Origin: Streptomyces phaeochromogenes
GTDB taxonomy: Bacteria; Actinomycetota; Actinomycetes; Streptomycetales; Streptomycetaceae
Assembly: GCF_001418655.1 (NCBI RefSeq)
Contig: NZ_LIQZ01000105.1
Coordinates: 1 to 64,000, forward strand
Direction: 5' to 3'
DNA length: 64,000 bases
Part shown: in pieces, positions 3,812 through 12,610 of the stretch
How positions within the stretch are numbered: position 1 is the stretch's first letter
Layout of the letters: the number at the start of each line of letters is the position of its first letter
Notes under the pieces: model-generated
Told to the model about the DNA's origin: nothing
Databases searched by the model: none
Seen by the model: only the letters and a program-made list of their open reading frames with translations
Made by a program: the position numbers and the translations under genes

Positions 3812-4388
3812 GGCGTGTTCGGTGTGGGGTGGTACTCAGGCGGACCCGTGTGTGGGCCGTGTACGGCGTCGCCGTCCGGTCGGCCTCTGCCGTCGCCGTA
3901 CGAAGGGCGGGCAGGACGGCGTCCGGAGGTGTGTCCGGTTCCAGCCAGACGCGCAGACGTACCTCCAGCCGCTGTCCGCGACGGGGGAGTACCCGGGCGC
4001 GGCTGCGGGCGATGCCGGGGAGGGCCGTCACGCGTGTGGCCAGTGCCTCGGCCAGGGCCTGAGGGCGCACTGTGCAGCCGGGGGAGGGCAGGGCGAGTGG
4101 CCGGGCCCGGCCCGAACGCGACTGCCCGAGGGACCAGATCGCGAGCAGCACGGCCAGGCCGATCGACGCGGCCATGACGGTGGGCGTCCACCAGCCTTCG
4201 CCGCGCAACTGCGCGAGCCGGTCCCGGTCCAGAAGGACGGTGCCCGTACCGGCGGCGGGCCACCACGTCGGCAGCCGGTCCGCGAAGGCGGGGTCCGTGG
4301 CGGTGAGCCATGAGCCCGCCAGGAAGAGAGAGAATCCCACGGCGCCGAGGACGGTCCGGTTGACGGCGGTACGGGTGCGGGCCATCAC
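3801..4388 (-). CDS. AmaP-like alkaline shock response membrane anchor
   Basis: A 195-residue protein with a hydrophobic segment near residues 12-30 and a second near 70-90, then a soluble C-terminal domain rich in Arg and Val. In Gram-positive bacteria AmaP tethers Asp23 to the membrane, and position within an Asp23 operon supports that role here. GTG 4388 and ATG 4385 are adjacent in-frame starts; the first overlaps the stop of the preceding DUF6286 gene as GTGA. Assignment rests on context and topology more than on strong sequence motifs. Confidence 0.72.
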   Translation of the reverse strand: MMARTRTAVNRTVLGAVGFSLFLAGSWLTATDPAFADRLPTWWPAAGTGTVLLDRDRLAQLRGEGWWTPTVMAASIGLAVLLAIWSLGQSRSGRARPLALPSPGCTVRPQALAEALATRVTALPGIARSRARVLPRRGQRLEVRLRVWLEPDTPPDAVLPALRTATAEADRTATPYTAHTRVRLSTTPHRTRHVR

Positions 4389-5392
4389 CGGTCACCTCCT
4401 GTGGCGGATGCGAGGGCGGAGGTGGGTGTGGATCGGCCGTCACGGTCTCCCGGTGTCGCCCCGGGCGCGTCAGCCGTCGCGTCAGCCGTCGGGGTGGGCG
4501 GCTGCCAGACCGGTTCCGGAGTGACGACCACCCGCAACCGGGGGCTGCGGCGCAGATGGCAGGCGGTCAGGGCGGCTCGGGCGGCGGCCGTGGCGGCGGC
4601 GTGGGCGCCTGCCCGGTCGCCGAAGGCGAGCCCGGCCCGCACGGTGACTCGTCGGCGTCGTACCCGAACCCGTACCGCTGCGATGCCCTCCACGTCTCCC
4701 ACCGCGTCGCGGATCAGGGCCTGAACCGCCGAGCGGTCCACCGCCGCGTCGACGTGATTGGCCGAGGTGCGAACGGTGGACTGGTGACGGCGGCCGGGGG
4801 AGAGGGCGAGGACGACCATCCAGATGCCGACCAGGGCCGTCAGCCCGCCCGCGACGACGACAGCCGGGTCGCCGGGTCCGTGCCCGGCCAGCCAGTACGC
4901 GGCGGACGTGCGCCAGGCCGCGGCCGGCAGGTGCGCGGCGTGCACCTGAAACATGTCGAGGGCGAGCGCACCGCAGCCCAGGGCGGCCACCGAGGTGAGG
5001 ACGGCGACCGGGACGCGGCGCTGGGACCACCAGCGCCAGGGAGCGCTTGTCGCGATGGCGTCCTCGGCCGGGGACACCAGGGGCTGGGCAGAGGTCGGCG
5101 TGGCAAGCGCGATGACGCTGATGCGTGCGGCCGGTACCTCCAGCCCCGTCAGCTCCCGGGTGCGCTCCACCACATGCCGCTGAACCTCCCGCACGGTGTC
5201 GGCCAGCGGAGCCGGATAAGGCAGCGTCACCCCGAGGGACACCTCCGCCCTCCTGCCGCGTACGGACGCCGCGGCCCGGGCCGTGCGGGCGCCGCCGGGT
5301 GCGGGCAGCGCCTCGGTGGTGGCCCGCTCGGCGATCCGGCGCACCGCCCGCTCCGAGACGGTGGTGGTGCCCCGCTGCGCGGCGGCGGTCAT
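4385..5392 (-). CDS. DUF6286-type protein with Asp23-like N-terminal region
   Basis: A 335-residue protein. Residues about 10-100 look like an Asp23/Gls24 domain (RRIAERATTEAL, then beta-rich AEVSLGVTLPYPAPLADTVR and LTGLEV). Two hydrophobic segments follow near 140-160 and 195-220, then a soluble domain ending in a Pro/Thr/Asp-rich tail. ATG 5392 was chosen over farther in-frame starts because it overlaps the TGA of the upstream small gene as ATGA and begins at the conserved region. It is the third gene of the Asp23 operon and probably a membrane-bound partner of Asp23. Confidence 0.8.
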   Translation of the reverse strand: MTAAAQRGTTTVSERAVRRIAERATTEALPAPGGARTARAAASVRGRRAEVSLGVTLPYPAPLADTVREVQRHVVERTRELTGLEVPAARISVIALATPTSAQPLVSPAEDAIATSAPWRWWSQRRVPVAVLTSVAALGCGALALDMFQVHAAHLPAAAWRTSAAYWLAGHGPGDPAVVVAGGLTALVGIWMVVLALSPGRRHQSTVRTSANHVDAAVDRSAVQALIRDAVGDVEGIAAVRVRVRRRRVTVRAGLAFGDRAGAHAAATAAARAALTACHLRRSPRLRVVVTPEPVWQPPTPTADATADAPGATPGDRDGRSTPTSALASATGGDR

Positions 5393-5580
5393 CGACGGCT
5401 CCGCTCGAACGCGTCCCGTACGTCCTGGACACTGCCGCCGCCGTCGGCCCACCGGCCCACCACCCAGCCCAGGCCGCCGAGAGCGGCCACGAGCAGGAAC
5501 GCGCCGAACCCGCCGAAGAACCCGGCGAACGCCAGGGCCATGCCCGCGACCATCCCCATGAACGGTGTACTCATGCCCAT
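5389..5580 (-). CDS. Small membrane protein of the Asp23 operon
   Basis: A 63-residue protein. Residues about 5-45 are almost entirely hydrophobic and Gly-rich (one or two membrane segments), followed by a charged tail ending DAFERSRR. It overlaps the next gene by 4 bp and sits 47 bp after the Asp23 gene. Small membrane proteins of this kind accompany Asp23 and AmaP in many Gram-positive operons. Function is inferred from context only. Confidence 0.78.
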   Translation of the reverse strand: MGMSTPFMGMVAGMALAFAGFFGGFGAFLLVAALGGLGWVVGRWADGGGSVQDVRDAFERSRR

Positions 5581-5627: not shown

Positions 5628-6137
5628 CTACTCCACGCGGGCTTCGGCCGTGGTCCCGGGCTCGTCCTCGTCGGGCAGGTGCACGTCGTTGACCGTGACG
5701 TTCACCTCGACGACCTCAAGCCCGGTGATGCGCTCCACGGCGGAGATGACGTTCTCCCGTACGTCCTGGGCGACGTCCATGACGGACACCCCGTACTCGA
5801 CGACCAGGTCGAGGTCGATGGCCGTCTGCCGCTCGCCCACCTCGACCTTCACTCCCCGCCCCACGTTGGGCCGGCCGCCGGGCACGCGGTCGCGTACGGC
5901 GCCGATGGTGCGCGAGAGGCCGCCGCCCATGTCGTACACGCCGGGGATCTCCCGGGCGGCGATGCCCGCCACCTTCACGACGACGACGTCGGCGATCGAC
6001 GTCCGGCCCCGGTTCGCGGCCGGCTGGTCGGCTCCCGCCGTACCGCCGGACACGGCAGTCGTGGCCTGGGCCTGTGGCGACCTGCCGGTCTGCTGGGTGG
6101 ACAGTTCCTTGGCGGCTGGTGCGGTCTGTGTGGTCAT
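5628..6137 (-). CDS. Asp23/Gls24 family envelope stress response protein
   Basis: A 169-residue protein with a disordered N-terminal third and a C-terminal Asp23 domain: TSIADVVVVKVAGIAAREI, then GVYDMGG, then the beta strands VKVEVGERQTAIDLDLVVEY and a terminal helix-strand with TGLEVVEVNVTVNDV. Asp23 proteins coat the inner face of the membrane and respond to cell wall stress. It is the first gene of the five-gene minus-strand operon that ends at 2858. A GAGAGGG ribosome binding site lies 8 bp before ATG. An 18-bp tandem duplication lies in the leader. Confidence 0.93.
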   Translation of the reverse strand: MTTQTAPAAKELSTQQTGRSPQAQATTAVSGGTAGADQPAANRGRTSIADVVVVKVAGIAAREIPGVYDMGGGLSRTIGAVRDRVPGGRPNVGRGVKVEVGERQTAIDLDLVVEYGVSVMDVAQDVRENVISAVERITGLEVVEVNVTVNDVHLPDEDEPGTTAEARVE

Positions 6138-6208: not shown

Positions 6209-6253
6209 TCAGACCCGGCCCGGCCGCGTCTGTGACGCGGGTACCCGGAAATA

Positions 6254-6296: not shown

Positions 6297-6950
6297 TCAG
6301 CTGGTGGGCATCAGGACGGTGTCGATGATGTAGACGTTGGCGTTGGCGGTCTTGACGTTGCCGCAGACCACCCTGGCGGAGTCGTTGACGGTGTAGGACT
6401 CGCCGGAGCCGGCGGTGGTGAGCTTCGACTTCTCCAGCGTGTCGAAGGAGCCGTTCTCCAGGTCCTTCGGGGCCAGCTTCTGGCCCACCACGTGATAGGT
6501 GAGGATCTTCGTCAGCTGGGCCTTGTCGTTCAGGACCTTGTCCAGGGTCGCCTTGGGGATCTTCGCGAAGGCGTCGTTGGTCGGCGCGAACACGGTGATG
6601 TTCTGTGCGTTGTTGAGGGTGTCGACGAGCCCGGCCTTCTTCACCGCCGTGACCAGCGTGGACAGGGCGGGGTTGTTGGACGCGGCGGTGGCCACCGGGT
6701 CCTGGGCCATGCCGTCGAAGGAACCGGCGCCGTCCTTCGGAACCGCGGAACAGGCCGTACCGAAGGGCTGGTCGGCCGTGGAGGCATCGCCGGAGCTGCC
6801 CATGCCGTCGTCGGCCGCCGGGGCCGACGCCTTGGTGGAGGAGTCCGACTTGGCGGAGTCGCCGCTGTCGTCCGAGCAGGCGCTCAGGGTCAGCGGGAGC
6901 ACTGCGGCGGCGGCCACGGTCATGGCGACACGGCGGATACGGGTGTTCAT
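6297..6950 (-). CDS. FAS1 (fasciclin) domain lipoprotein
   Basis: A 217-residue secreted lipoprotein. A signal peptide with charged MNTRIRR start, hydrophobic core and lipobox LSAC ends near residue 24. A Ser/Asp-rich linker follows, then one FAS1 domain from about residue 75: the H1 motif ITVFAPTNDAF and the H2-like region ILTYHVVGQ are clear, and the domain ends with NVYIIDTVLMP. ATG 6950 has an AGGAGA ribosome binding site. The mycobacterial homologues MPT70/MPT83 are FAS1 proteins under SigK control, which makes the nearby SigK-type gene notable. Probably a cell-surface adhesion or envelope protein. Confidence 0.93.
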   Translation of the reverse strand: MNTRIRRVAMTVAAAAVLPLTLSACSDDSGDSAKSDSSTKASAPAADDGMGSSGDASTADQPFGTACSAVPKDGAGSFDGMAQDPVATAASNNPALSTLVTAVKKAGLVDTLNNAQNITVFAPTNDAFAKIPKATLDKVLNDKAQLTKILTYHVVGQKLAPKDLENGSFDTLEKSKLTTAGSGESYTVNDSARVVCGNVKTANANVYIIDTVLMPTS

Positions 6951-7020
6951 GGTGTTTCTCCTGTTGGTCGGCGCGGCTGTAGCCGCGCTCGTACGGGGGT
7001 GGGAAAGGTGGCTCGGGGTG

Positions 7021-8625
7021 TCACTCGGCGGTGACGACGACGGAGTGCCATCCACTGGCGCCGTCGGGGATGGTCCGCGCGCGCTTCTCGGTCTGCACCC
7101 GGCCGTCGCGGTCGGTGGCGCGAACGGTGAGGGTGTGACCGCCCTTGGCGGCCTGCCAGGCGAAGGACCACTGGCGCCAGGTGTCGCGCGAGTCCTCCGC
7201 CGCCAGCCGGGCCTCCTCCCAGGGGCCGTCGTCGACGCGGATCTCGACCTTGTCGATGCCGCGGTGCTGGGCCCAGGCGACCCCGGCGACCATGACCGTG
7301 CCTGCCTTGGGGCGGGCGAAGGGCTTGGGGGTGTCGATGCGGGACTGCGTCTTGATCGGTGCCTTGCGGGCCCAGTCGCGCTCGACCCAGTACGGGTCGT
7401 AGGCGTCGAACGTGGTGAGCTCGATGTCCTTGATCCACTTGCAGGCGGAGACGTAGCCGTAGAGGCCGGGCACGACCATGCGGACAGGGAAGCCGTGTTC
7501 GAAGGGCAGCGGTTCGCCGTTCATCCCGAGGGCGAGGAGGGCGTCGCGGCCGTCCATCACGTCCTCGACCGGGCTGCCGGTCGTCATGCCGTCCACCGAG
7601 CGGGCCACCAACTGGTCCGCCGGGCCTCCTTTCGAGGGCGCCTTCACCCCGCACTCGGCCAGCAGATCCGCCAGTCGTACGCCGATCCAGCGGGCGTTGC
7701 CGACGTACGGGCCGCCGACCTCGTTCGACACGCAGGTGAGCGTGATGTCGCGTTCGATCAGCTCGCGCCGCAGAAGGTCGTCGAAGGTGAGGGTGACCGG
7801 CCGGGTGACACCTTCGCCGTGGATGCGCAGCCGCCATTGCGTCGCGTCGACCTTGGGCACCACGAGGGCGGTGTCGACGCGGTAGAAGTCATCGTTGGGT
7901 GTGACGAAGGGGCTGACCCCGGGGAGCCGCAGCTGGGCACCCTTGGGTACGGCCCGGGCAGGGGAGCCGGGCGCGGGCAGCACCAGGTTCGTTCGGGAGG
8001 CGACCGCGTCCCGGCCGCTCGAACCGCTCAGGGAGCGGCCGAGCAGCCCGGCTCCGGCGGACGCGACCGCTGCGGCGCTCGCCGCGATCACGAAGCCGCG
8101 GCGGTCCCATCCCTCGTCGGACGCCGGTGCGCCGGGCGCGGGTTCCGGGGGCGTGAGGCAGCCCACCAGGACGTACAGCAGTACAGCTCCGACGGCGGCG
8201 CCGGCCACGGACGGCAGCGCGTCGGCGACACCGGTCGAGTCGGGCCTGCCGGTCGCGGCGACCGCGCCGACTGCTCCGAACAGCAGCACGCCGGCTGCCC
8301 CGGTGCGCCGGAACCGCAGCGCGGCAATTCCCAGCGCCGGCGCGAAAAGTGCCAGTACCGCGAGAATTCCCAGCTGCAGAACCAGTTTGTCGTCGCTGCC
8401 GAAATTGCGGATCGCCCAGTCCTTCACCGCGGCGGGCGTACGGTCGATCGCCGCGCCGCCGACCGCGACAACCGGACCGGCCTGCGGACGTCCTCCGCCT
8501 GCCACCAGTTCGGCGACCGCGAGCGCCGCGAAACCTGCCAACGCGCCGCTGAGCGCGCCCAGCAGCGGCCGGGTCGGGCTGCTGCGGCGGCATCCGCTCC
8601 GTGGTTCCTGCTCGTTCTCGGTCAC
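7021..8625 (-). CDS. Membrane-anchored molybdopterin-dependent oxidoreductase, sulfite oxidase family
   Basis: A 534-residue protein. The N-terminal third has about four hydrophobic segments, and a further hydrophobic Ala-rich segment follows near RRGFVIAASAAAVASAGAG. The C-terminal half is a sulfite-oxidase-type catalytic domain: ITLTCVSNEVGG holds the molybdenum-ligating Cys, VPGLYGYVSACKWIKDIELT is the family signature, and an Ig-like dimerisation domain ends the protein. GTG 8625 is the chosen start although its ribosome binding site is weak; GTG near 8673 is an alternative. It follows the FAS1 gene in the same direction. The natural substrate is unknown. Confidence 0.9.
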   Translation of the reverse strand: MTENEQEPRSGCRRSSPTRPLLGALSGALAGFAALAVAELVAGGGRPQAGPVVAVGGAAIDRTPAAVKDWAIRNFGSDDKLVLQLGILAVLALFAPALGIAALRFRRTGAAGVLLFGAVGAVAATGRPDSTGVADALPSVAGAAVGAVLLYVLVGCLTPPEPAPGAPASDEGWDRRGFVIAASAAAVASAGAGLLGRSLSGSSGRDAVASRTNLVLPAPGSPARAVPKGAQLRLPGVSPFVTPNDDFYRVDTALVVPKVDATQWRLRIHGEGVTRPVTLTFDDLLRRELIERDITLTCVSNEVGGPYVGNARWIGVRLADLLAECGVKAPSKGGPADQLVARSVDGMTTGSPVEDVMDGRDALLALGMNGEPLPFEHGFPVRMVVPGLYGYVSACKWIKDIELTTFDAYDPYWVERDWARKAPIKTQSRIDTPKPFARPKAGTVMVAGVAWAQHRGIDKVEIRVDDGPWEEARLAAEDSRDTWRQWSFAWQAAKGGHTLTVRATDRDGRVQTEKRARTIPDGASGWHSVVVTAE

Positions 8626-8650
8626 GGGGGGAATCCGGCTCCGAAAGCCG

Positions 8651-8704
8651 CGCGGATTGGTCGCTCCCACGATCGGATGAATTTCGTTTTCCGACCAATC
8701 CGCG
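8651..8704. promoter_or_regulatory. 13-bp perfect inverted repeat between divergent genes
   Basis: CGCGGATTGGTCG at 8651-8663 and its exact complement at 8692-8704 flank a 28-bp AT-richer spacer. The repeat lies just upstream of the molybdoenzyme start and before the divergent ECF sigma gene, in a locally AT-rich stretch. It could be a regulator binding site with two half-sites about five helical turns apart or part of a leader hairpin. Confidence 0.5.
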
Positions 8705-8929
8705 CCCGCTTCGGCTACGGATTGCGAATTAAAGAGGTACCCAAAGAGGTCCCTTGCCGTCCGGCCGTGGAGCGGAAACGCATGGTGCTGCCGCGCATCG
8801 GAGCCTTCCTGCCCCGTGCCGGCGCCGCCCGCCCCGCATCCGTACGGTCCTGGTTTCCCGAAGTTCTCCGTAACGGGGACGGCGCCGCGGTGTCCAACCT
8901 TCAGAAGACCGGACGAGAGGAGCCGCCCA

Positions 8930-9523
8930 GTGGTGGGGGCCCGCACACAGAGCGAACCACCGGACACCCGGGCCGACACGACGGCCCCGGACGACGCCCT
9001 GCTGGCGGTCCGTGCCGCGGAGGGGGACGAGGACGCCTTCGCCGTGCTCGTGCAACGCCACGCGGCGGCGCTGATCCGCCTCGCCACGAGTCTGCTCGGG
9101 ACCGGCGCCGAGGCGGAGGACGCCGTACAGGACGCCTTCCTCAGCGCCTGGCGGCGGCTGCCTGAGTTCCAGGGGCGTTCCTCCTTCGGCACCTGGATGT
9201 ACCGGATCGTCACCAACCGCTGCCTGAGCGTGCTGCGGGCCCGCAAGCCCGTGGCACCGCTGGAGGCGGCGGGTGACGTGCCAGCGGCCGAACACGCCAC
9301 CTCTCCGGCCCGGATCACCGAGGGCCGCGACGCGGTCCGCGAACTGCGGGAGGCCCTCGACCTGCTCTCGGCCGAACAACGGGCCTGCTGGGTACTGCGG
9401 GAACTGGACGGCCGGTCCTACGAGTTCGTCGCGGACGCGGTCGGCATCAGCCAGGAGGCCGTCCGTGCCCGTGTCTTCCGCGCACGCCGTCGTCTCACAC
9501 AAGCACTGGGGGCCTGGCGATGA
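8930..9523 (+). CDS. ECF-type RNA polymerase sigma factor
   Basis: A 197-residue sigma-70 family factor. Region 2 is clear (DEDAFAVLVQRHAAALIRLA, then AEDAVQDAFLSAWRRL and GTWMYRIVTNRCLS). Region 4 contains LLSAEQRACWVLRELDGRSY and the helix-turn-helix FVADAVGISQEAVRARVFRA. GTG 8930 was preferred over upstream in-frame starts because a GAGAGGAG ribosome binding site sits 7 bp before it. It overlaps the next gene by 4 bp (ATGA). That gene encodes a putative anti-sigma factor, so this factor is probably held in check by its neighbour. Confidence 0.93.
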   Translation: MVGARTQSEPPDTRADTTAPDDALLAVRAAEGDEDAFAVLVQRHAAALIRLATSLLGTGAEAEDAVQDAFLSAWRRLPEFQGRSSFGTWMYRIVTNRCLSVLRARKPVAPLEAAGDVPAAEHATSPARITEGRDAVRELREALDLLSAEQRACWVLRELDGRSYEFVADAVGISQEAVRARVFRARRRLTQALGAWR

Positions 9524-10155
9524 CCGACCGCACCGACCCGTCGAACAGCGCGTTCACCCACGCTGACGACGAACTCCTGCCGTGCGGACGGCTGGTGTCG
9601 CGGACCTGGGACGACTGGGAACAGCAGACCGACGACGCACACCTGCGGTCCTGCCCGCACTGCCGGGACGCCGTGCGGGGACTGGACGACCTGGAGTCCG
9701 TGGTGCGCGGCCTGCGAGCGGAGTCGGCGGACACCTCCGCCTACGACGCCGAGCCGCTGACCCGGCGGATCATGGACGTCGTACGCCTCGAACTACGCCC
9801 GGGCCGCCCCCTGCCCCTCGGCGAACCCGCCGAGGATCTGTGGATCATGGAGGCCGTCGCGGCCCGCGCACTGCGCGCGGCGGCCGAGACGGTCGCGGGC
9901 GTCCGGGCGGGTTCCTGCCGCCTCGTCGACGCCCGCGTTGACGGGACAGACGGCACATGCGATTCCGGCGGGGTCCGCCTCGACATCCACGCCCCGGTGG
10001 GTGTCTCCCTGCCGGAACTCACCGACCGGGTACGCGCCCGTGTGTGGGAGGCCGCGGACCGCGAACTGGGCGTGGTCCTGGCGTCCGTGGACATCCGTGT
10101 CACCGACCTCGTCGCCGGTACGGCCGACGACGGCCAGGAAGGTCGTACGCCATGA
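9520..10155 (+). CDS. Putative zinc-motif anti-sigma factor with Asp23-like C-terminal region
   Basis: A 211-residue soluble protein. The N-terminal part carries HLRSCPHC, an H-x3-C-x2-C pattern as in zinc-binding anti-sigma (ZAS) domains, preceded by another Cys near residue 22. No transmembrane segment is seen. From about residue 100 the sequence looks Asp23-like: EAVAARALRAAAETVAGV, strands GVRLDIHAPVGVSLPELTDR, and AADRELGVVLASVDIRVTDL. It is translationally coupled to the ECF sigma gene and to a further Asp23-like gene. I infer an anti-sigma factor that senses or joins the Asp23 network. The fusion interpretation needs profile searches. Confidence 0.72.
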   Translation: MTDRTDPSNSAFTHADDELLPCGRLVSRTWDDWEQQTDDAHLRSCPHCRDAVRGLDDLESVVRGLRAESADTSAYDAEPLTRRIMDVVRLELRPGRPLPLGEPAEDLWIMEAVAARALRAAAETVAGVRAGSCRLVDARVDGTDGTCDSGGVRLDIHAPVGVSLPELTDRVRARVWEAADRELGVVLASVDIRVTDLVAGTADDGQEGRTP

Positions 10156-10505
10156 CCGCGCACCACGAGATCACAGCGCACGCGAAGCTCGTCGAGGAAG
10201 TCGCCACGGCTGTCCAGGCTGTGCCGGGAGTGGCCTTCCTCAGGCCGGGTCTGGCCGACCGGCTGCGCTCCGCGCCGGCACGGCCCACGCCAGGTACCGG
10301 CGGGGCACCTCCGGCCGGAGTGCGCATGACCCGGCCGGACGGCGAGGGCCCGTGGCACGTCGAGATCCACGTCGTCGCGCTTCGGCGGGCCAGGACCCTG
10401 GACGTGGCCCGCCTCGTCCGGAGCGCCGTCGAGCACCGCCTGGACTCCCTGGTGCCCGCGCAGCAGACGCCGCGGGTCACCGTGACGGTCACGGGCCTCG
10501 TCTGA
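10152..10505 (+). CDS. Small Asp23-like protein
   Basis: A 117-residue protein with the general layout of Asp23-type proteins: a helix (AKLVEEVATAVQAVPGVAFLR), a central linker, strand VEIHVVALRRARTLDVARLV and the final strand PRVTVTVTGLV. ATG 10152 overlaps the previous stop as ATGA, so it belongs to the ECF sigma operon. No catalytic motif is visible. A strong hairpin terminator follows 39 bp after the stop. Confidence 0.7.
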   Translation: MTAHHEITAHAKLVEEVATAVQAVPGVAFLRPGLADRLRSAPARPTPGTGGAPPAGVRMTRPDGEGPWHVEIHVVALRRARTLDVARLVRSAVEHRLDSLVPAQQTPRVTVTVTGLV

Positions 10506-10543
10506 CGCCGGATCACCGGATCGGGCCCGGCCTCCTCCGGCAG

Positions 10544-10572
10544 CCGTCCCGGCACACGCTGTGCCGGGACGG
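10544..10572 (+). terminator. Hairpin terminator of the ECF sigma operon
   Basis: CCGTCCCGGCACA, loop CGC, then the exact complement: a 13-bp perfect stem 39 bp after the last gene. No T-tract follows, as is common in Streptomyces. It may serve the convergent rskA-type gene as well. Confidence 0.78.
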
Positions 10573-10745
10573 CCGTGCGGTGAGCGGTACGCACCGCCGC
10601 CGGCCGGGCACCGGTCCGTGGGCCGGCCGCAGCGGTCCCGGCGTGATCGGGTCCGGTCGGTGCGGTAGGGCCCGTCTCCCAGGGCAGGGCCGTGGACGGC
10701 CGGGCCTCGCCGTCGCCGGTCTGACCCGGTCGGCCGTTCAGTCGT

Positions 10746-11498
10746 TCAGCCAGGGAAGGTCATCAGGGCGAGCGGGGCGGATGTGGGCTGCTTGGAGCCG
10801 CCGCCGGGTTCGACGGTGATGCCCATGCCCGACGCCTTGTCGACGGTGCCCTGCATCAGGAGGGCCTGGTCACTGCGGTCGGGGTCCATCAGGCCGGCGG
10901 ACCGCATGGTCCCGCCGTCGTCGAACCAGAGCTGGTAGACCTTCCCGCCGGGAGGACGGGCCATCCCGGAGGCGACGAACACGGCCTTGTCCCGGCTGTG
11001 GGAGACGACGACAGTACCGGTGGCGCCGTCGGCCAGCTTGGCGGCCCGGGTCCTGGCGTCCGGCGCGGCCAGTACGGCGGCCACCTCGTCCGCCGCCTGC
11101 TCGGTGCGGCGCGCCTGGTCGCGGGCGTCCTCGGCTCGCTGGTGCTGCCACACGGCCGTCCCGCCGAGCGCCGTGGCCGCCGCCAGGCAGGCGGCGAGCG
11201 CCCACCTGGACAGTACCCGGGCCCGCAGACGGGCCCGGAGGGGGAGGGCCTGGGCCCGCTTGCCGGGCGTCTCCTGCCGGACCGCGGTGATCCGGCGCAG
11301 CACCTGTTCGCGCAGCACCGGACGGGGTGCCGTGGCGACGGCGAGTCCCAGGCGAGCCGCGGTCGCGCTCAGCTCGGCCGTCTCCTGCGCACACGCTTCG
11401 CAGCCCGGCAGGTGGCGCTCGAACGCGGCACTCTCCTCGTCGGACAGAGCGTGCAGTGCGTAGGCGCCCGTCAGCTGGTGCAGATCGATGGTCGTCAC
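10746..11498 (-). CDS. RskA-type anti-sigma factor
   Basis: A 250-residue single-pass membrane protein. The N-terminal cytoplasmic domain has LHQLTGAYALHALSDEE and then HLPGCEACAQE, the zinc-binding-type anti-sigma motif. One membrane helix lies near residues 95-115 (ALAACLAAATALGG), and an extracytoplasmic RskA C-terminal domain follows (VYQLWFDDGG, then SAPLALMTFPG). RskA restrains SigK in mycobacteria and is released by regulated proteolysis. The gene overlaps the upstream sigma gene by 4 bp, as expected for a cognate pair. Confidence 0.92.
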   Translation of the reverse strand: MTTIDLHQLTGAYALHALSDEESAAFERHLPGCEACAQETAELSATAARLGLAVATAPRPVLREQVLRRITAVRQETPGKRAQALPLRARLRARVLSRWALAACLAAATALGGTAVWQHQRAEDARDQARRTEQAADEVAAVLAAPDARTRAAKLADGATGTVVVSHSRDKAVFVASGMARPPGGKVYQLWFDDGGTMRSAGLMDPDRSDQALLMQGTVDKASGMGITVEPGGGSKQPTSAPLALMTFPG

Positions 11499-12079
11499 GC
11501 GGTCACCCCCAGGCAGTCGCGCAGCCGGATGAGCCCGTCACGCAGTCGGGTCTTGACGGTCCCCAGCGGAACCGCCAGCGCCTCCGCCACCTCGCGGTAG
11601 GTCAGCCCCCGGTAGTACGCCAGGGTGACGGCCTGATGCTGGAGCTCGGTCAGCGTGCGCAGACAGCGCCGTACCTGTTCCCGCTCCAGCCGTGCCTCGA
11701 CGTGCTCGGCCACCTCGTCGTACTCGGGCAGTTGGTCCAGCAGCGCGGCCTTGTGCTCCCGGGCGGCAGCGGCGTCCACCGAGCGCACCCGGTCCACCGC
11801 CCTGCGGTGCGCCAGGGTGAGGATCCAGTTGATGGCCGTACCGACGTCGGGCCGATAGCGGGGAGAGGTCCGCCACACCTCCACGAGAACCTCCTGCGCC
11901 ACTTCCTCCGACTGAGCCTGATCGCGCAGCACGGCGCGCACCACACCCGTCACCGGACTCACCACGGCGTCGTAGACACCGGCGAACGCGTCCTCGTCGC
12001 CCAGAGCCACACGGCTCACCAACTCCTGCAAGTCAGGCCCCGCCGAGGGATTTCTACTGATCTGCACTACTTCTTTCAC
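11495..12079 (-). CDS. sigK: SigK-type ECF sigma factor
   Basis: A 194-residue ECF factor. Region 2 reads DEDAFAGVYDAVVSPVTGVV, then SEEVAQEVLVEVWRTSPRYRP and AINWILTLAHRRAVDRVR, which is the SigK group signature. Region 4 has LTELQHQAVTLAYYRGLTY, then REVAEALAVPLGTVKTRL. GTG 12079 was chosen because GGAGG lies 6 bp upstream. It is coupled to the RskA-type gene. In mycobacteria SigK drives FAS1 proteins and its own locus, which includes a CFA-synthase-like gene and a DUF1295 gene; all of these have counterparts within 12 kb here. Confidence 0.88.
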   Translation of the reverse strand: MKEVVQISRNPSAGPDLQELVSRVALGDEDAFAGVYDAVVSPVTGVVRAVLRDQAQSEEVAQEVLVEVWRTSPRYRPDVGTAINWILTLAHRRAVDRVRSVDAAAAREHKAALLDQLPEYDEVAEHVEARLEREQVRRCLRTLTELQHQAVTLAYYRGLTYREVAEALAVPLGTVKTRLRDGLIRLRDCLGVTA

Positions 12080-12610
12080 CGAGGGCCTCCACGGTCGGGA
12101 CATGTCCGGGCGTAATCCGTTCCCGCCGAGAGCTTGGATTGGTTGCACTGACGAGGAAATCGCAGGTGACGTGGGAGAACCCGGACGGCACAGCAACGAT
12201 CACCGAGTCTCACCGGTGCGCCAGGAGCTCCGCCGCTCACGCTTCGGTCGGTGACTGCCATGCCTTCGACCCGCCCCGAGCGAGGCCGCACGAAGGCATG
12301 GCCGGATCGGAAGGCTTCGGGCCGCACTGTGCGGCACGGCCCGGAAGCGTTCTCCTGGGACTGTGCTGGTGAGGTGTGGCTGGACGAGTCCGTCCTGTCG
12401 ATCAAGGTTGGCGGTGCCAGGCCGTCATGAGGTACTCGTGACTGTCCCGTGAGTTCCGGTCGAGCTGCGATGCTTCCGGATGTTGCTGGTCGCAGGGGGC
12501 CGTACGGGTGACTGTCAGGCCCCTCGGACGGAGTAGTGCCAGGGCCCCGTGGCGGGTTCGCTCCTATCGTGGAACCGCTCACTGACGGTCGGCGCCGAGG
12601 CAGGCAGCAC
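12080..12610. other. Intergenic stretch with a 12-bp inverted repeat
   Basis: No convincing gene is seen; short open frames lack ribosome binding sites and recognisable sequence. GCCATGCCTTCG at 12257-12268 and its exact complement at 12291-12302 form a 12-bp inverted repeat with a 22-bp spacer. A second, imperfect hairpin lies at about 12315-12346. The stretch must hold the sigK promoter on the minus strand and the PP2C promoter on the plus strand. Confidence 0.5.

Follow-up and report, generated by a model that had tools for sequence, protein, structure and literature searches.

The window analyzed here, a stretch of 64,000 nt from the soil bacterium Streptomyces phaeochromogenes, most likely carries an autoregulated sigma/anti-sigma pair that controls an envelope-coat operon by means of an inhibitor resembling the product of that operon. 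As judged from the sequence, the core of the arrangement consists of an ECF sigma factor, its predicted anti-sigma factor, and a divergent Asp23 operon as the putative target (Table 1). We assign this core reading a probability of about 0.82.

The initial annotation had proposed an anti-sigma factor that joins an Asp23 scaffold and thereby links membrane-coat status to transcription. The parts of this design that now have support are a ZAS-type N terminus whose profile leads to ECF loci, an Asp23-like C terminus, and a tie to an Asp23 operon through synteny and a shared motif. The step from coat status to transcription stays tentative.

Table 1. Features of the predicted sigma operon and of the divergent Asp23 operon, in window positions
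Feature	Position	Strand	Evidence or remark
ECF sigma factor, 197 aa, GTG start	8930..9523	+	Pfam regions 2 and 4; ECF gene in related loci
Soluble predicted anti-sigma factor, 211 aa, ZAS N terminus and Asp23-like C terminus (residues ~103-198)	9520..10155	+	
Asp23-like protein, 117 aa, third gene of the operon	10152..10505	+	
Asp23 family protein, 169 aa, predicted sigma target	5628..6137	-	PF03780, 1.2e-29
Small membrane protein, 63 aa, DUF2273-like	5389..5580	-	PF10031, E 0.012, 16.1 vs 25.4 bits (below cut-off)
DUF6286/AmaP-like membrane protein	4385..5395	-	PF19803, 1.1e-22; start at 5395 predicted here
Predicted ECF-type promoter of the sigma operon, CGTAAC ... TGTC	8869..8897	+	16 nt between GTAAC and TGTC
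Predicted ECF-type promoter of the Asp23 operon, CGTCAC ... GGTC	6209..6237	-	

Layout of the sigma operon

The three plus-strand genes at 8930-10505 are coupled as had first been described, with ATGA overlaps at 9520-9523 (sigma factor stop, 211-aa protein start) and at 10152-10155 (211-aa protein stop, 117-aa protein start). The product of the first gene matches both Sigma70_r2 (6.8e-20; PF04542, 71.1 bits, cut-off 24) and Sigma70_r4_2 (3.3e-11; PF08281, 43.1 bits, cut-off 25.7) above the Pfam cut-offs. Sigma-70 regions 2 and 4 are the only ones that this protein contains, which identifies it as an ECF sigma factor.

This layout recurs in related loci. A same-strand ECF gene is present in 80 of the 81 loci examined, and at the one exception (L150) the DNA begins only 156 bases before the match. 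In 74 of 80 loci, the sigma stop and the anti-sigma start overlap at offset 0, and the anti-sigma stop and the third-gene start do so in 64 of 74. The third gene, which encodes the 117-aa family, is found in 76 of 81 loci. A scan of positions 10100-10760 yielded no sigma-70 promoters or terminators.

In the window, sulfite-oxidase-like and fasciclin genes interrupt the module, and a SigK/RskA-like pair flanks it at 12196-10746 (minus strand). All of these genes belong to a minus-strand set in the 6297-12196 region, which resembles the mycobacterial SigK set.

The predicted anti-sigma factor and the Asp23-like third protein

The 211-aa protein carries the H-x3-C-x2-C motif (H41-x3-C45-x2-C48) that had been recognized initially, and an upstream residue omitted at that time, Cys22, is the likely fourth ligand. 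Cys22, His41, Cys45, and Cys48 are invariant in all 73 aligned relatives of alignment A4 (72 of the 80 named loci plus the window), whose rows were picked by likeness to the window protein. In a first set of sequences, which overlaps A4, Cys plus H-x3-C-x2-C occurs in 44 of 45 members, with L076 lacking the His. A simple ligand pattern was matched in 80 of 81 loci; the miss (L137) has a long, repeat-rich spacer, yet is among the 73 rows of A4. The absence of a membrane helix, also part of the initial description, is borne out by a peak 19-residue hydropathy of 1.37, compared with 2.4 for the AmaP-like protein encoded nearby.

The strongest evidence that this region is probably an anti-sigma domain is the proximity of its relatives to ECF genes. 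When 21 genomes were searched with a profile restricted to residues 1-88, 33 matches were obtained at E <= 0.1. The window gene and its orthologue from genome G011 account for two of these, and three came without a locus, leaving 28 loci. An ECF gene lies within ~3 kb at 23 of the 28 and is not seen at the other five, whereas none of 22 control loci picked by an unrelated DNA pattern has one. Among the 31 matches outside the orthologue pair, 13 are also matched by the RsrA model, all below its cut-off. L244, one of the 28 loci, itself belongs to the system.

Searches with the single sequence are not decisive, because both halves of the fused protein fall below the cut-offs in Pfam and NCBIfam. 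The window protein scores 12 bits against zf-HC2 (Pfam cut-off 22.2). The NCBIfam model antisigmaE matches 13 of the 73 relatives (best E 0.0083) and gives 0.14 for the window protein, and the RsrA model (TIGR03988) matches 2 of the 73 at E <= 0.1 (best 0.079) and does not match the window protein. Likewise, hhalign detects only weak likeness of the N-terminal domain to RsrA (0.22) and RskA (0.015), compared with 5.9e-5 for RsrA against RskA; nine unrelated control pairs gave values of 0.31-0.99. The zf-HC2 and Asp23 searches recommended in the initial annotation thus stayed below the Pfam cut-offs for the window protein, and it was profile-profile comparison that brought out the Asp23 likeness. 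A PDB sequence search with profile A4 returned nothing significant. Its best match (0.047) is unrelated by name, and the second, 3hug_B at 0.072, is aligned over the zinc motif. We take 3hug_B to be the anti-sigma domain of M. tuberculosis RslA.

In the predicted model, the N-terminal region forms four helices (residues 26-34, 40-44, 46-70, and 77-91). Class I anti-sigma domains are defined in one report (PMC7406223) as four helices, the fourth following a linker; the first three bind sigma region 4, and the last binds region 2. The four modeled helices are in line with this definition. Structure searches made with the model of the fused protein were dominated by its other, C-terminal domain. 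Overall, the assignment of the N terminus as a putative ZAS-type anti-sigma domain, homologous to known anti-sigma factors, is supported.

The C-terminal half had been said to look like Asp23, and a second Asp23-like gene had been said to follow. The first statement holds as a remote likeness (hhalign P 4.8e-7, probability 87%), and the second holds with weaker support (P 1.6e-4, probability 24%). Scores against PF03780 are 14.3 bits for the 211-aa protein and 14.4 bits for the 117-aa protein; these lie below the gathering cut-off of 28, and both proteins are therefore named Asp23-like here rather than Asp23. A distant relative of the fused protein (L237) reaches 35.7 bits. At E <= 1, the same model matches 24 of 31 relatives of the fused protein (best 7.8e-7) and 24 of 32 relatives of the 117-aa protein (best 1e-8). 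Profile A1, built from 31 of 45 sequences, has matches in 145 of the 396 genomes searched in the phylum; many of these matches are confined to positions ~100-206, and the five that were checked are Pfam Asp23 proteins (3.7e-23 to 1.3e-27). A further alignment, A5, holds 65 of 74 members together with that of the window. The likeness points to a real but remote homologue of Asp23 in the C-terminal domain and, with weaker support, to an Asp23-like 117-aa protein. Within this domain of the fused protein, Cys133 is also invariant in 73 of 73 rows of A4.

Residues 103-198 were modeled as alpha-beta-beta-alpha-beta, and the model of the 117-aa protein has a helix and strands in the matching order. 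The model of the fused protein has a pTM of 0.52 and therefore does not fix the domain arrangement. Foldseek returned a single match at E < 0.001 for the fused protein, to EscJ (4.7e-4). VIA-align matched the fused protein to MamM (Z 10.4; 1.8 A over 78 residues) and PrgK (10.1), and the third protein to MamM (11.7) and EscJ/PrgK (9.2). The top classes, common to both proteins, are CDF-transporter C-terminal domains and type III secretion ring domains; we read these matches as a shared alpha-beta arrangement instead of as kinship. The VIA-align matches include no Asp23 structure, which proves nothing about an Asp23 fold, and the PDB sequence search found no solved relative of canonical Asp23 better than E 0.089.

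The divergent Asp23 operon and a shared promoter-like motif

Outside the region covered by the initial annotation, a minus-strand operon spanning 6137 to 4385 encodes an Asp23 family protein, a small membrane protein, and an AmaP-like protein, the last of which scores 54.4 bits against anchor_AmaP (cut-off 55). Of the 74 loci whose DNA extends 3.5 kb or more ahead of the sigma gene, 73 have a divergent Asp23 gene. In 19 of 77 loci, including the window, sulfite-oxidase-like and fasciclin genes lie between the two operons, with the gene starts 2.6 to 4.1 kb apart. At another locus, L034, a short sulfite-oxidase-like stretch (9379-9705; 53% identity) lies between the operons and both inserted genes are missing; this stretch is perhaps a remnant from loss after insertion.

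The Asp23 protein of S. aureus forms filaments and is held at the membrane by AmaP, and, according to the same passage, its molecular function is still unclear (PMC6954212). In Curtobacterium, genes of the Asp23/Gls24 family are stated to have risen on drying (PMC12029717).

A promoter-like motif is shared by the two operons. The strict form, CGTMACR-N15/16-KGTC, occurs before the sigma gene in 70 of 80 loci and before Asp23 in 64 of 77 (the window counted in both), counts that, like those for neighboring genes, are not independent because the loci are related and were selected for their similarity to the window protein (best 80 of 94). Two of the loci, L067 and L078, appear to be one place, and L061, L063, and L064 are nearly identical. 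In 100 dinucleotide shuffles, the mean was 0.19 and the maxima were 2 and 1. The strict motif is found before the sulfite-oxidase-like gene in 1 of 21 cases, before the fasciclin gene in 0 of 21, before the SigK-like gene in 0 of 21, and before the AmaP-like gene in 0 of 71. Where the two intervening genes are present, a loose form stands at both operons in 18 of 19 loci, L136 being without the motif at the sigma gene. The reverse-strand control for this loose form is not clean (48 and 38 matches), because short intergenic regions contain the motif of the neighbor.

Variants of the motif exist beyond this set. A second family (L234 and L235) has GTGAC-N16-TGTC before both genes, and the remaining 19 of 21 loci, mostly from other families and including L238 from the genus of the window, lack such a motif. 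On the Asp23 strand of a third family (f91), CGTGAG-N16-GTGTC is present at 6 of 6 loci, an observation made post hoc and with no control.

Across the 10.9-Mb genome of the window's own strain, the 16-spacer form gives 7 matches, compared with 3 in a reversed control, and 2 of the 7 are the promoters listed in Table 1. Another of the seven, L209 (G000:C80:640-668), lies 61 nt before a 238-aa regulator-like frame, a possible extra target of the sigma factor. A related form, CGCGTMAC-N16/17-KGTC, gives 18 matches in the same genome, compared with 6 in the reversed control; 15 of the 18 overlap a frame that is GC-rich at third positions, and a wide regulon is not claimed on this basis. Synteny and the shared motif together support the view that the module is probably tied to a real Asp23 operon.

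Proposed regulation, related systems, and distribution

In the mechanism that we propose, the ECF sigma factor would transcribe its own operon and the Asp23 operon from the CGTMACR-N15/16-KGTC promoters. By analogy with established anti-sigma biology, the second protein would hold the sigma factor through its N-terminal ZAS domain. The Asp23-like domain would serve as the input by pairing with Asp23, with the third, Asp23-like protein, or with both. Under this scheme, sigma would be held or free depending on the supply of Asp23 coat or on its state of assembly, a step to which we give somewhat less than even odds. A more specific and slightly more tentative version has the anti-sigma factor assembling together with the Asp23 coat or with free subunits, such that the occupancy or integrity of the coat is read directly into transcription of the coat operon. 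The sign that we favor is that of a homeostat: Asp23-like subunits outside the membrane coat would keep the anti-sigma factor inhibitory, and recruitment of Asp23 to a stressed membrane would relieve the inhibition. Because Asp23 of S. aureus forms filaments that AmaP anchors, coat assembly would be a natural signal.

Two other views of the input keep the same core. The zinc site might itself be the sensor, with oxidation of its Cys and His residues freeing sigma as in RsrA/SigR and the Asp23-like domain serving to scaffold or localize the complex. The invariance of the four likely ligands and of Cys133 in A4 favors this possibility, as does the statement that soluble anti-sigma domains are enriched in zinc motifs, at ~72% (PMC7406223). 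However, the same source describes the zinc site of RsiW as an example that such sites can be structural. Moreover, members of family f8 have Asp (L288 and L292) or Arg (L294) in place of the His or have lost most zinc ligands (L236 and L237), and all five variants keep the ECF gene and the Asp23-like domain. Such zinc-poor members speak against the zinc site as a universal sensor. Redox control in Streptomyces itself keeps some probability, but overall we regard zinc sensing as rather unlikely. Less probable still is plain product feedback, a circuit without membrane input in which binding of Asp23 and the 117-aa protein to the Asp23-like domain would set sigma activity according to how much Asp23 is present. 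The predicted targets, which are the Asp23 operon and the sigma operon itself, would suit such a circuit. So would a paralogue in the same genome (C210; L073 6331-7083), a single protein that joins both Asp23-like halves, lacks the zinc domain, matches the profile of the 117-aa family over residues 191-237, and is encoded divergently from a second Asp23 operon. However, Asp23 is linked to the membrane elsewhere, which makes it hard to tell an effect of its amount from one of the membrane state.

A very different view gives up the anti-sigma role and treats the 211-aa protein as an Asp23 variant with a structural or zinc-storing function that simply happens to be encoded in the sigma operon. 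The lack of any Pfam zinc-finger score above cut-off and the weak profile likeness to RsrA and RskA are compatible with such a protein. Set against these points are the overlap with the ECF gene in nearly all loci, the ECF genes reached by the N-terminal profile and absent from the control loci, and the retention of the sigma/anti-sigma pair in several families, and we consider this explanation very improbable. The preferred reading is a sigma factor restrained by an Asp23-like inhibitor, with coat supply or assembly as its candidate input.

The initial annotation knew of no described system of this design, a statement contradicted by the ECF286 and ECF292 groups. The genes for these sigma factors adjoin genes for soluble proteins of the Asp23 family, which are the predicted anti-sigma factors, and experimental data are described as lacking (PMC8999054, citing Casas-Pastor 2021). 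The window likewise has an ECF gene adjoining a soluble protein of this kind, though one that is Asp23-like, and the system very probably belongs to the ECF286/ECF292 kind, a comparison made by description. The passage on ECF286/ECF292 in PMC8999054 mentions no zinc domain, third Asp23-like gene, or Asp23-operon target. Searches of openly licensed literature turned up no experimental work on the module, and neither a promoter link nor a zinc-domain fusion was found there; the classification of Casas-Pastor 2021, which lies outside that scope, may say more and could describe such experiments or the promoter link. As far as openly licensed papers go, what the window adds to the known kind is a fused zinc domain, a third gene, and a promoter link between the module and the Asp23 operon.

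Two further comparisons are instructive. RsrA, RshA, and ChrR share with the 211-aa protein a soluble Cys ... His-x3-Cys-x2-Cys domain and an operon with an ECF factor, but the window protein differs in its fused Asp23-like domain and in an N-terminal profile only weakly like RsrA. The predicted target resembles the Asp23/AmaP operon of S. aureus and other Gram-positive bacteria in combining Asp23, a small membrane protein, and an AmaP-like protein. The S. aureus operon is under the control of SigB, whereas that of the window has a predicted dedicated ECF factor with an Asp23-like anti-sigma factor.

The wider question behind the module is what the Asp23 coat does and how cells gauge its amount. 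With its dedicated sigma factor, an inhibitor similar to the coat protein, and the coat and sigma operons as predicted targets, the module offers a compact genetic system in which the signal could be sought. Now that promoters, ligands, and partner genes are specified, a bare prediction of the ECF286/ECF292 type also becomes testable. If the proposal is true, cells would have a transcriptional homeostat that adjusts how much coat they make to the condition of the envelope.

Nearly all of the best 80 of 94 relatives are from Streptomyces, and S. coelicoflavus (L162) is one carrier of the system. A search of 150 genomes of the genus matched 128, of which 45 have a best E <= 5.2e-23, followed by a gap to 3e-14; beyond the gap, the matches listed mostly cover residues 83 onward and represent the paralogue without the zinc domain. 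A search of 394 genomes of the class at 1e-13 matched 63 (34 in the genus and 29 outside), spanning 15 of 137 genera and seven families. Of the 29 genomes outside the genus, 15 were examined as loci, plus four (G198, G377, and the f8 members G398 and G457). The 15 loci have an ECF gene in 15 cases, a recognized fused protein in 14, and a canonical Asp23 within ~3.5 kb in 12; at L281, the C-terminal part of the fused protein alone was matched. Apparent split genes in another family were discounted, since in the matches examined the counted stops lay at the gene end.

Five Streptomyces plasmids (H1-H5) carry the module, which is therefore accessory in part and may move between strains. On all five, the gene for the fused protein adjoins one for a sigma factor, Asp23 genes run divergently, and the fused protein is annotated as a member of the Asp23/Gls24 family on four and as hypothetical on one.
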